From contig JAMLIC010000002.1 in the NCBI GenBank assembly GCA_023954375.1, positions 248,001-312,000 of the forward strand: 64,000 nucleotides of DNA, given 5' to 3'. Origin of the DNA: Planctomycetota bacterium (GTDB taxonomy: Bacteria; Planctomycetota; J058). The translations under genes were made by a program, and so were the position numbers. Below are positions 47,065 through 51,322 of the stretch, piece by piece. The notes under the pieces were generated by a model. That model searched no databases, had not been told where the DNA came from, and saw only the letters and a list, made by a program, of their open reading frames with translations. Within the stretch, counting starts at the first letter, position 1. Each line of letters opens with the position of its first letter.

Positions 47065-47361
47065 CTACCGCTTGCGGCGACCCGCTCCGGACCGCTTGGT
47101 CCCTCGCGGGGTCGCCTGACCGAACACGTCGGCGAGCTTGCGGGCGCGGAGCACCTCGCGCCCCCAGCCCTCGAGCTGGCGAGCCGAGGCGCGCGCGAGC
47201 CGCTCCTGCACGTCGGCAGGAAGAGGAGCGAACTTCTCCTCCAGCTGCCCACGAAGGAGCCTGCGGGTGGTCTCGAGCCCCTGGGCGATCCCCTTGGCGG
47301 CGCCCTGATCGGTCAGCTCCTGCGCCGTGCTCATGACCACCTCGCCCGCCAGCCTGCTCAA
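47065..47361 (-). pseudogene. C-terminal remnant of an Rpn/YhgA-like nuclease
   Basis: The frame encodes 98 residues starting at TTG 47361. MSTAQELTDQGAAKGIAQGLET resembles the Gly/Glu spacer, and FAPLPADVQERLARASARQLEGWGREVL the tail (FGPLPxxVxxRIxxAxxxxLExWxxRVL), of PD-(D/E)XK Rpn family proteins. The nuclease domain is absent and no strong start exists. It directly abuts the atypical gene upstream, so deletion or recombination probably removed the 5' part. Confidence 0.5.
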
Positions 47362-48425
47362 CTCCTGCTCCCGAAGGCGCTCATCGCCCTGCCCGCCTTG
47401 TCCTCGTCCTGAGTCGGAAGGACATGCTCCAGGAGGCGCCGCTTCAACGCGTTGCTCAGGAGCGAGCGGTCCCTCTCACGCCTACTCGAGAACGTCCAGC
47501 CTCCGAAGAGCCGCGCGGCGCCCTCCAGCACCTCCTCGACTGGGTCAGAGACGGACTCGAAGGCCCGTATCAGGACGGGGGTCGGGTACCTCATGAGGAG
47601 TTGCTCGGGTTCCCCTTCATAGCTCGGGTAGCCGCTCCAAGGTCCCTTGCCGCTACCGAACCAAGCCAGGAGAGCGACGAGCCGTTCGTCCTCATCCTCG
47701 TAGGCCTTGGCCAGCGCTGCCTCGACCACGGCCAGGCTCTCTGCGTGACCTTCGTACTTCTCCTCGTGCGCGTCGGGATGGTCGAGCCCCTCTCGCTCCG
47801 CTACGAGGCCGCGCAGGCAAGTGGGCGTCGCGGCCTCCCACCGCTGTCGCGCCCTCTCGTACTCCACTTGCTCGCGACGCTGCTGCTCATCGAGCTCGAG
47901 CGGGCGGGTGACGCCCCGCTCGGCCAGCCAGCTGATGACGCTCATGCCCTCCCTCAGGATGGCGTCGTCCTTCCATGCCTCCCAGCGGATCGATCGGCCG
48001 TGGTGAAGACCGAGCAGAGCCACGACACGCCCCTCGTCGTCGAGGAACTCGAGTGCGTGGTCGCCGTGGCACATGCAGTGCCCTCCCGGCTCCTCCTCGA
48101 TCTCCAGGGCCTCCCGAAGGGAGGTAAGGTCGTCGGGGTCGCTCGTCTCCAGCACGGGGGAGGGCTCTCCATCGAGGTTCAGCAGCTTCCCACCGGCAAC
48201 GCCGACGTCGTACACCCGCGCTCGAACCGCCCGGACAAGGGCTTCTTCAAGGACCCGCTGGCTGGGCGGTGGCGCATTTGACTCGAGGTACGCCAGCGTG
48301 GTGGCGTCCACGAGCATTGTCCCGCCGTCCGGTCGTTTGATCACCGTGAACCCACCATCGTGCGGCGATGGGTCGTGCGCGCGGACGAAGCCCAACCACG
48401 AAGCGAGCTTGCGGAAGAGTTGCAC
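47358..48425 (-). CDS. Hypothetical protein of atypical composition
   Basis: The product is 355 residues. The DNA is clearly less GC-rich than the rest of the window and uses more A/T-ending codons. A central motif, GHCMCHGDHALEFLDDEGRV, is followed by LLGLHHGRSIRWEAWKDDA; I recall this block in uncharacterised proteins but know no function. The C-terminal half is helical with EDEDERLVALLAWFGSG. GTG 48425 is the only reasonable start. The composition and the tRNA nearby suggest horizontal origin. Confidence 0.6.
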   Translation of the reverse strand: MQLFRKLASWLGFVRAHDPSPHDGGFTVIKRPDGGTMLVDATTLAYLESNAPPPSQRVLEEALVRAVRARVYDVGVAGGKLLNLDGEPSPVLETSDPDDLTSLREALEIEEEPGGHCMCHGDHALEFLDDEGRVVALLGLHHGRSIRWEAWKDDAILREGMSVISWLAERGVTRPLELDEQQRREQVEYERARQRWEAATPTCLRGLVAEREGLDHPDAHEEKYEGHAESLAVVEAALAKAYEDEDERLVALLAWFGSGKGPWSGYPSYEGEPEQLLMRYPTPVLIRAFESVSDPVEEVLEGAARLFGGWTFSSRRERDRSLLSNALKRRLLEHVLPTQDEDKAGRAMSAFGSRS

Positions 48426-48977: not shown

Positions 48978-49415
48978 TCAACCGCTCGGGCCCCCCCGCC
49001 GGACGGAGCGGGCGAGGGCGTCGAGGACCATGGCCTCGACGACGTGGCCGGCGACGTGGGTGAGGAAGAGCGTGACCACGAGCGAGATCGGCTCGACGCC
49101 GAGGACCGCGCCGAGGGCGGCGGCGACGAACAGGAGCGCGATGCGGATCGGCCACAGGCCCATGGTGAGGCCCATGAGCGCGCCGCCCGAGCGGTCGAAG
49201 GCGAACAGGGCGCCGAAGACCCAGGTGGCCGTGATCAGGAGGCCGGTGATCCCGCCGATCGCCACGCCCATGCCGGCGGCGGGATGCGCCGTGGCGAAGA
49301 GGGCGGCGGAGACGATGCCCGCGACGCCCAGGGGGATCGCCAGGCCGAGGAGCGCCCGGCGGACGATCCGCACGCGCTCACCCGGCGGGACCTTCGGCGG
49401 CGTGACCGGGCTCAT
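48978..49415 (-). CDS. Four-helix membrane protein
   Basis: The product is 145 residues with four hydrophobic segments (ALLGLAIPLGVAGIVSAALFAT, GVAIGGITGLLITATWVFGALFAF, ALLFVAAALGAVLGV, LVVTLFLTHVAGHVVEAMVL). Size and layout resemble AtpI-like small membrane proteins, but no ATP synthase genes are nearby, so the family is not assigned. ATG 49415 is 13 nt after the selenoprotein gene, last in the lgt operon. Confidence 0.5.
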   Translation of the reverse strand: MSPVTPPKVPPGERVRIVRRALLGLAIPLGVAGIVSAALFATAHPAAGMGVAIGGITGLLITATWVFGALFAFDRSGGALMGLTMGLWPIRIALLFVAAALGAVLGVEPISLVVTLFLTHVAGHVVEAMVLDALARSVRRGGPSG

Positions 49416-49428
49416 GGCGCGCCCCCCC

Positions 49429-49776
49429 TCACCCGAGCAGCGCCCGCAAGGCGCCCTCGTCCGAGCCCACGACGGCGCGGCCGCCGCGGACCGTCACCGG
49501 GCGACGCAGGAGGTTGTTGTCCAGGAGCGCCGCCTCGAGCAGGTCCTCGCGCGACGGCGGAACGGCCTTCCACCCGCGCTCCTTGGCGACCGCGTGGCGG
49601 GTGTTGAGGACGTCCGCCGGCGACGACACGGCCGAGAGGATCTCCTCCACCTCCTCCCGCGTGAGCGGGGCCCTGGCGTAGTTGCGCTCGATCACGTCCG
49701 GGGCCAGGGTGCGCACGAGACCTCGCGCGCCACGGCAGCCCGTTCACGTGCTCTTCCAGTAGAGCTTCGTCGTCAC
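49429..49776 (-). CDS. Predicted selenoprotein, ArsC/Spx-like thioredoxin fold (UxxC)
   Basis: From GTG 49776 the frame reads VTTKLYWKST, then TGA (49744-49746), then TGCRGARGLVRTLAP and on without interruption to TGA at 49429. That gives 115 residues, the normal ArsC/Spx-like length. The TGA falls exactly where the first Cys of the redox motif CxxCR is expected, giving UTGCR. After it come the family blocks ERNYARAPLT, DVLNTRHAVAKERGWK and NNLLRRPVTVRGGRAVVG. A SECIS-like hairpin follows the TGA. The start overlaps the DUF423 stop (GTGA), which argues that translation really begins upstream of the TGA. Calling the gene from GTG 49716 would drop the active site. The protein is a likely thiol/selenol oxidoreductase; arsenate as substrate is not implied. 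Confidence 0.85.
49709..49733 (-). promoter_or_regulatory. Bacterial SECIS element
   Basis: Starting 10 nt after the in-frame UGA, the RNA folds into a 10-bp stem with one bulged G and a GGUC tetraloop closed by A-U. The apical AGGUCU is the same as in the E. coli fdhF SECIS loop, where G and U contact SelB. It begins 20 nt after the UGA, against 17 in fdhF. This is within the usual spacing for bacterial selenocysteine insertion. Confidence 0.75.
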
Positions 49777-50222
49777 GCGCGCCCCTCCGCCGGCGCCCCC
49801 ACCGGAGCCCCCCCAGGAGTGATGGCCGCCCGGCCGGCCAGCGCCAGCGCCCCCCAGCCGACCATGAACCCGAGCCCGCCGAGCGGCGTGATCATCCCGA
49901 GCGCCCGCGCGCCGGTGACGCCCATCACCACGAGGCTCCCCGTGAACAGCACGGCGCCCGCGACGAAGCCGACGCCGGCGACGGTCGCCGCGCGCGTCGG
50001 GGCCCGCGAGGCCGCCCAGGCGACCGCCAGGAGGGCGACCGCGTGGTAGGCCGCGTAGCGCACGCCGACCTCGTACCAGCCCTCGACCTTCGCCGGCGCC
50101 TCGCCGATCCGCTCCGCCACGTGGGCGAAGTGGGGCCGGAGCCCGTGGGCGCCGAACGCGCCCAGCGCCACGGCCAGCAGGCCCACCAGACAGCCGGCGA
50201 CCCACCACCCGCGCGCGCTCAC
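49773..50222 (-). CDS. DUF423 family membrane protein
   Basis: The product is 149 residues with about four transmembrane helices. Family motifs are LGAFGAHGL, YHAVALLAVAWA, GSLVVMGVTGARALGMITPLGGLGFMVGW. The role is unknown in all bacteria studied. GTG 50222 follows the lgt stop by 1 nt and its own stop overlaps the selenoprotein start. Confidence 0.88.
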   Translation of the reverse strand: MSARGWWVAGCLVGLLAVALGAFGAHGLRPHFAHVAERIGEAPAKVEGWYEVGVRYAAYHAVALLAVAWAASRAPTRAATVAGVGFVAGAVLFTGSLVVMGVTGARALGMITPLGGLGFMVGWGALALAGRAAITPGGAPVGAPAEGRA

Positions 50223-50223
50223 G

Positions 50224-51243
50224 TCAGGTGCCCTCCTGCGCCGGGCCCGCGTCGGTCCGAGGGGCCTCCGCCGCCGGGGCGTCCGGCGCGGCGGCGGCCG
50301 CAGGGGCCGCCGGGGCCGCGTCCAACTTCACAGGCCGCTCGAGCGCCAGCGGGTCCTTGCCCTCGGCGACGAGGCGATCCCACTCGCGGCGGCCGCGGAG
50401 GTAGAGGACCACGAAGGCGATGATCGCCGGCGGGAGGACGAGCGCGCTGATGAACTGGCTCGTGGACATCGTCACGCCGCCGATCGAGTAGACGCCGCGG
50501 ACGAGGTCGCCGCGGGTCATCTCCACGAGGAAGCGGCCGATCGGGTAGAGCACGAACAGGAGCGCCGCCAGCGCCCCCGGCGCGCGCATGAGGGGCTTGC
50601 GCAGGGCGATCAGGAGCCCCGCGATCGTCAGGCACTTGATCGTCATGAGCGGCTGGCTGGGGAGCAGCGGCACGCCCAGGTAGCCCGGCCCGACGAGGGC
50701 GTTCTCGTCGGTGAACGTGAGCGCGTACCAGGGGATGTGGTCCATGACCACGGGGTTGTGCAGCTCGAACCACCCCGGCCCCTTGGTGGCCAGGACCTGC
50801 TGGACCTGCTCCTCGAGCAGGATCATGCGCCCGTGGTCGTCGCCCGCCATGAGGCAGCCGATGCGGCCGATCCCCAGGCCGAGCATCGCGGCCGGCGCCA
50901 GCAGGTCGCACGTGCGCAGCACGGGGAAGCCGTAGTGGCGCATGCGCCAGATCGCCACGACGGTCGCGGCGATGAAGCCGCCGTACCAGACGAGGCCGCC
51001 CTCCCAGATGGCGAAGATCCGCCACAGGCCGCGCTCGGAGTAGAGCTCCCAGTTGTGGATGACGAACTGCAGGCGCGAGCCGATGAGCCCGGCCAGGAAG
51101 ACCTCGACCGCGAGCGAGGCCACGTCCTCGGGGTCGAGGCGCAGCCGAGGCGCGTCGCGCCGCACCCACCACAGACCCGCGAGCACGCCCAGCAGCACCA
51201 TCACGCCGAAGGTGTGGATCGGGCCGATGAGGATGGGATGCAC
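50224..51243 (-). CDS. lgt: Prolipoprotein diacylglyceryl transferase
   Basis: The product is 339 residues with seven membrane helices. Signature stretches are EGGLVWYGGFI, LGIGRIGCLMAGDDHGR (the Lgt signature region) and YPIGRFLVEMTRGD. A Pro/Ala-rich cytoplasmic tail of about 35 residues is extra. Lgt transfers diacylglyceryl from phosphatidylglycerol to the lipobox Cys. GTG 51243 (VHPILIGPIHTFG) is chosen: homologues begin MHP, and GGAGG lies upstream. The longer ATG at 51288 coincides with a TACCAT -10-like hexamer. The window's lipoproteins would be substrates. Confidence 0.93.
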   Translation of the reverse strand: MHPILIGPIHTFGVMVLLGVLAGLWWVRRDAPRLRLDPEDVASLAVEVFLAGLIGSRLQFVIHNWELYSERGLWRIFAIWEGGLVWYGGFIAATVVAIWRMRHYGFPVLRTCDLLAPAAMLGLGIGRIGCLMAGDDHGRMILLEEQVQQVLATKGPGWFELHNPVVMDHIPWYALTFTDENALVGPGYLGVPLLPSQPLMTIKCLTIAGLLIALRKPLMRAPGALAALLFVLYPIGRFLVEMTRGDLVRGVYSIGGVTMSTSQFISALVLPPAIIAFVVLYLRGRREWDRLVAEGKDPLALERPVKLDAAPAAPAAAAAPDAPAAEAPRTDAGPAQEGT

Positions 51244-51322
51244 CTGGGGAGGCCTCCGGAGCCGCGGCGCCGCCGCGAGCACCACCATGGTAACCGCGCG
51301 TCGTCGCGCGTGAGGCCAGCGC

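Follow-up and report, generated by a model that had tools for sequence, protein, structure and literature searches.

A probable selenoprotein of the ArsC/Spx fold with UGA at the active-site cysteine codon in a Planctomycetota genome

The window analyzed here is a stretch of 64,000 nucleotides from contig JAMLIC010000002.1 of a Planctomycetota bacterium (assembly GCA_023954375.1), and our subject is a short gene on its minus strand. Read from 49776 to 49429, the frame begins VTTKLYWKST*TGCRGARGLV..., where the asterisk marks codon 11, a TGA (49744-49746). No stop interrupts the frame before or after this codon until a terminal TGA at 49429-49431. A preliminary description of this DNA had placed an in-frame TGA at the first cysteine of a redox motif, with the same frame on either side, and reading the sequence bore out both the coordinates and the frame. 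The GTG start codon (49774-49776) overlaps the stop codon of an upstream DUF423 gene, as had also been described, and this overlap could possibly serve translational coupling. Gene calling with translation table 11 begins instead at GTG 49716 and yields a 95-amino-acid protein that lacks the motif, in agreement with the earlier statement that an ordinary call drops the active site. The protein database entry (P0002) has the same form. The features of the locus are collected in Table 1.

Table 1. Positions in the window of the predicted selenoprotein gene and associated features
Feature	Position	Strand	Details
Predicted 115-amino-acid ArsC/Spx-fold selenoprotein coding sequence, GTG start	49429..49776	-	Pfam ArsC 33.8 bits; AlphaFold pLDDT (predicted local distance difference test) 96.1
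In-frame TGA, predicted selenocysteine codon 11, motif KST-U-TGCR	49744..49746	-	TGA in 14/14 top phylum matches
Codon for Cys14, the putative resolving residue in UxxC	49735..49737	-	Cys in 14/14 members of the selenocysteine-encoding family
Hairpin resembling a selenocysteine insertion sequence (SECIS)	49711..49730	-	Arms 49723-49730 and 49711-49718; tetraloop GGUC 49719-49722; AGGUCU 49718-49723
Internal GTG, ordinary calling gives 95-amino-acid product without active site (P0002)	49714..49716	-	
DUF423 gene upstream, stop overlapping selenoprotein start	49773..50222	-	
lgt	50224..51288	-	Homologue close upstream of the selenoprotein gene in four same-family genomes

The protein matched the Pfam family ArsC (PF03960) above its gathering threshold of 24 bits, and its AlphaFold model is of high confidence (Table 1). 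The predicted fold is that of ArsC and Spx, and the sequence is nearest to Spx. More specific models were matched below their cutoffs: NF002459 (Spx) at 41.6 bits (cutoff, 123), TIGR01617 (Spx/MgsR) at 32 bits (cutoff, 75.05), TIGR00014 (arsenate reductase, glutaredoxin) at 30.5 bits (cutoff, 106.05), and NF041106 (ArsC_rel_Se_1) at 19.9 bits (cutoff, 85). The best of 10 further proteins scanned singly against NF041106 reached 45.6 bits.

The TGA codon recurs in related genomes. Our homologue search covered 392 Planctomycetota genomes, with at most 11 candidates scored per genome (weak further matches may be missing), and gave a match at E <= 1e-5 in 44 of them. The top 14 places, from as many genomes (the window's own included) and all at E <= 1.1e-23, each contained exactly one stop codon, a TGA, which lay at codon 11 in every case. 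The next two places (E values of 4e-22 and 3e-20) have TGC at this codon. Across the TGA, the 13 other proteins are 39 to 92% identical to the window protein, with the remaining frame intact. The window genome is a 10.1-Mb draft assembly in 115 contigs, rated 90.23% complete with 5.93% contamination, a state in which a TGA might arise by sequencing or assembly error, or mark a gene in decay that has acquired a nonsense mutation. The same codon in 13 further genomes with otherwise intact frames refutes this explanation, to which we give practically no credence.

The 14 carriers belong to the window's own order (families f1 and f2), including a same-genus relative (G001), and to a second class of the phylum (families f60 and f18), in which 9 of 17 genomes have the gene. 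In the 392-genome search, no match was found in G002, G005, and G006 of the window's own family, which is represented by seven genomes, in two more of its order (G008 and G009), or in two more of its class (G010 and G011); these seven assemblies are rated 67 to 90% complete. A scan of genome contigs with the single protein gave 303 pattern matches and only three loci, because the scan patterns were strict.

Homologues in the protein database tell the complementary story. We listed 137 of them (25 in one listing and the best 120 of 1068, overlapping), and the cysteine that the preliminary description placed at residue 11 was found in all 90 that are full length. Position 14 in these 90 is Cys in 72 and Ala in 18; therefore, position 11 is the invariant one. 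The close homologues with CxxA in place of CxxC (P0012, P0052, P0055, and 15 others, e.g., YWKSTCTTAR) constitute a putative monothiol version of the same family.

The other 47, among them the entry for the window gene itself, start just downstream of the motif, as would be expected from a gene caller halted by TGA. These are known as protein entries, with the DNA read for the window's own among them. Two from Planctomycetota, P0102 and P0117, carry the names "ArsC/Spx/MgsR family protein" and "hypothetical protein" and probably correspond to the TGA-carrying contigs G190:C176 and G004:C232. Such short entries, and the public gene calls behind them, are also what would be seen if UGA terminated translation and the functional product were a protein of about 95 residues started at the internal GTG, without the active site. 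We consider this very unlikely. Lys8 and Thr10, both encoded upstream of the TGA, are near-invariant across 22 aligned members, and the 90 Cys forms are full length. A form beginning at residue 21 would be missing strand 1 and the greater part of helix 1 of the predicted fold. The covariation of the hairpin described next argues against an internal start as well.

Directly downstream of the UGA, the transcript is predicted to form an 8-bp stem closed by a tetraloop, GCGCGCGA-GGUC-UCGUGCGC, in which AGGUCU starts after a spacer of 20 nucleotides. The position next to the UGA and the small apical loop containing a G agree with the definition of a bacterial SECIS given in PMC1088965. The preliminary description had reported this hairpin, its distance, and its likeness to the loop of the Escherichia coli fdhF SECIS; all three held, and the hairpin proved to be conserved in the nearer relatives. 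A 42-base fdhF segment was matched in 5368 of 5426 E. coli genomes, three of which were listed and carry the annotation fdhF at this place. Its loop is identical to the apical AGGUCU of the window hairpin and likewise follows soon after the UGA, with a spacer of 17 nucleotides in the fdhF segment compared with 20 in the window gene. The two elements differ in stem sequence and in host protein.

A hairpin with the GGUC tetraloop is centered 23 nucleotides past the UGA in six genomes (the window's own, G001, G003, G004, G007, and G052). The distance is exactly the same in all six, with stems of 6 to 8 bp, and the proteins of the five relatives are 51 to 92% identical to the window protein. When each gene was recoded synonymously, a hairpin of this type appeared in 0.15 to 0.7% of 2000 shuffles. 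The hairpin stretch of the window gene uses the codons CGA for Arg and GGT for Gly, which, counted over six window genes, account for 3.7% and 4.8%, respectively, of codon use in their families. A GGUC or GUC hairpin of at least 5 bp was present in 10 of 14 TGA genes of the family but in none of 17 Cys genes, counts that exclude L033 and L034, which are duplicate loci, as well as five TGA genes of an ArsC type described below. The stem also covaries. In an alignment of eight genes (the six above with G222 and G107), four of the eight pairs were changed on both sides, a result reached by 1 of 500 shuffles, a figure that, as the tool warns, is not a probability. Slid versions of the alignment gave zero or one such pair. 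Pairing was possible in 85.9% of the cells of the alignment, and the outermost pair was formed in three of the eight genes. Among the genes of the second class, L036 to L039 carry a GUC-loop hairpin about 5 nucleotides further downstream, the stem of L040 is interrupted, and L041 and L042 have six-base loops.

The genome encodes the machinery for selenocysteine (Sec) insertion that the preliminary description had proposed to look for, and all parts scored over their cutoffs: selA (523 bits; cutoff, 268), selB (321 bits; cutoff, 242), selD (418 bits; cutoff, 125), and a tRNA-Sec whose anticodon is TCA (UCA in RNA; 71.7 bits; gathering score, 47). Among the 14 carriers of the family, SelB, sought at E <= 1e-50, was over its cutoff in 12 (all but G001 and G190) and tRNA-Sec in 11 (all but G190, G222, and G253), so that at least one of the two was found in 13. 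An open frame across the TGA in all 14 close family members could alternatively mean that UGA has been reassigned in the lineage or is read through by an ordinary tRNA for Trp, Cys, or Gly. Against this, the gene itself ends in TGA, as does its upstream neighbor, and its own terminal TGA therefore speaks against a general reassignment. Moreover, a dedicated UCA tRNA-Sec is present together with SelA, SelB, and SelD, and the residue replaced is always a conserved Cys. We rate reassignment or readthrough as exceedingly improbable.

Several points count against Sec insertion at this codon. The folding energy of the hairpin is ordinary for so GC-rich a stretch (z = -0.76, with equally good folding in 45 of 200 shuffles) and, not being significant by itself, was rejected as evidence; when the window gene is shuffled synonymously, 4.7% of the shuffled versions reach its stem length. 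For genes of the second class, a GUC hairpin says less because about 11% of recoded shuffles are expected to yield one, and L043 is without a clear hairpin. No SelB match was found in G001 at E <= 1e-50, and G190 alone showed neither SelB nor tRNA-Sec over cutoff; both assemblies are incomplete. SelB was over cutoff in 47 of 60 genomes tested, including 35 of 46 outside the 14 carriers. SelB presence is thus necessary and discriminates little because the protein is widespread in the phylum, and we dropped its co-occurrence as weak evidence. The weight of the hairpin as a putative SECIS rests on its loop, its position, and its covariation across relatives.

Three of the properties by which a selenoprotein gene is judged are found together here: a UGA at the Cys position of homologues, a downstream stem-loop, and selA, selB, selC, and selD in the same genome. 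We conclude that the gene product is very probably an ArsC/Spx-fold selenoprotein, with UGA 11 predicted to be read as Sec by means of SelB and the hairpin. Sec recoding of the active-site Cys, as first proposed in the preliminary description, draws its support from the 14 of 14 TGA codons, the 90 of 90 cysteines, the machinery, and the covarying hairpin. In the mechanism that we propose, SelB carrying Sec-tRNA(Sec) would read UGA 11, aided by the hairpin just downstream, and Sec would be incorporated at residue 11. Sec11 would then act as a nucleophile of low pKa and Cys14 as the resolving thiol in a selenenylsulfide cycle. The protein would work as a thiol-disulfide oxidoreductase to which thioredoxin, glutaredoxin, or a comparable donor supplies the reducing equivalents, and its substrate would probably be an oxidized protein or a small thiol rather than arsenate.

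The gene product could alternatively be a selenium-containing arsenate reductase proper. The window protein shares with the TIGR00014 ArsC proteins, which include UxxS selenoproteins from marine metagenomes, the fold, the position of the nucleophile, and Arg92-Pro93. It differs from them in having UxxC rather than UxxS or CxxS and in scoring under the family cutoff. The Gly-Arg-Pro found near the C terminus of these ArsC proteins is Gly-Ser-Asp in the window protein. The Arg of this motif, which we take to be equivalent to Arg107 of E. coli R773 ArsC, follows the C-terminal Gly in all seven Cys ArsC rows and all five ArsC-type Sec rows of our alignment but in only 3 of 14 members of the window family, and the window protein has Ser105 after Gly104. 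We draw nothing from Arg60 of the window protein because the seven Cys ArsC rows carry Lys, Gly, or His there. The genome has a separate, ordinary Cys ArsC-like protein (L032, G000:C57:35895-36233) with the motif NPRCSKSR, and a Pfam scan of seven neighboring frames gave no match to a family of arsenic genes. An arsenate reductase therefore seems unlikely, and an oxidoreductase acting on thiols remains our preferred view of the selenoprotein.

A further idea is a redox switch of the Spx type built on selenium, in which Sec11 and Cys14 would sense oxidants faster than the CxxC of Spx and report to RNA polymerase. Spx/MgsR regulators differ from the window protein in having Cys where it has the predicted Sec, and the Spx chains are of 131 to 132 residues in five of six matched compared with 115. 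We regard such a switch as quite unlikely; if it existed, it would be a selenoprotein transcription regulator of the ArsC/Spx fold.

UxxC selenoproteins related to ArsC are already known as a kind. A list of 2006 includes ArsC-like selenoproteins (PMC1794560), one of 2008 has an "Arsenate reductase 1" with UxxS and an "Arsenate reductase 2" with UxxC (cd03032; PMC2398784), and a 2026 review assigns model NF041106 to a UxxC "Arsenate reductase-like protein" (PMC13188914). Judging by the reference number, NF041106 is apparently the "Arsenate reductase 2" family of the 2008 Global Ocean Sampling study. Like the window protein, NF041106 proteins belong to the ArsC/Spx superfamily, have Sec at the first Cys of UxxC, and are frequent in Planctomycetota, where 63 of 294 genomes have a match over cutoff and 56 of the 66 places listed contain a TGA. 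Unlike the window family, the 20 NF041106 rows that we aligned lack His61, Trp69, and Arg92.

We masked the active-site column and built a tree of 61 proteins, in which NF041106 was represented by the 20 of the 66 listed places with loci. These 20 rows formed one clade (100/100) on a long branch that did not include the window family. The 14 Sec rows of the window family formed a clade of their own (89/93, not starred; 82/91 in another tree with the column unmasked in Cys rows), joined to Cys homologues at a fork without clear resolution. A third clade (99/81) comprised five ArsC-type Sec rows. A single clade of window-family and NF041106 Sec rows was rejected by the approximately unbiased (AU) test with the column masked (p-AU = 1e-64, to be read as a strong rejection from so long a branch and not as a literal number). 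A single clade of window-family and ArsC-type Sec rows was also rejected (p-AU = 0.006, column unmasked in Cys rows). Since the Sec lineages lie apart on the tree, Sec at one active-site position has probably been gained or lost more than once within the superfamily in this phylum; the tree does not distinguish between the two.

What is new, then, is a separate, unnamed Sec lineage of the ArsC/Spx fold, apart from both the catalogued family and the further ArsC-type one. The Sec reading of the preliminary description stands, and its "probable new selenoprotein" is to be narrowed to a new lineage of an already catalogued kind. Among the titles and abstract openings listed by literature searches, none names an Spx-like selenoprotein, and earlier surveys may have counted some members of this lineage under "ArsC-like" (PMC1794560) or under "Arsenate reductase 2" (PMC2398784). 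The public entries of 47 of the 137 listed homologues lack the predicted active site, and a single additional profile model could mend this gap in annotation. The paired Sec and Cys forms offer a clean set with which to ask what selenium buys the enzyme.

Within the NF041106 clade itself (L074 to L093), Sec and Cys forms are mixed, a sign of repeated Sec/Cys exchange. The ArsC-type Sec group (L024, L029, L049, L051, and L054), from other Planctomycetota, has TGA at the Cys site, UxxC, and Gly-Arg-Pro near the C terminus. Its genes carry a GGUC-loop hairpin centered 19 nucleotides after the UGA, with a stem of 7 bp in four of the five and 3 bp in L029. The two of its proteins that were tabulated (L024 and L051) score under the TIGR00014 cutoff and not over that of NF041106.

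Four genomes of the window's family (its own, G001, G003, and G004) have an lgt homologue a short way upstream of the predicted selenoprotein gene, confirmed by Pfam LGT in all except G001, where it was recognized by sequence similarity. In G178, the single second-class genome scanned with Pfam, the neighbors are a fatty acid desaturase and others, so that no partner common to both classes emerged from this comparison, and gene neighborhood was set aside as a guide to function. Downstream in the window, the minus-strand frames 47358-48425 and 48978-49415 had no Pfam match; the latter, judged by eye from its hydrophobic stretches, resembles a small membrane protein.
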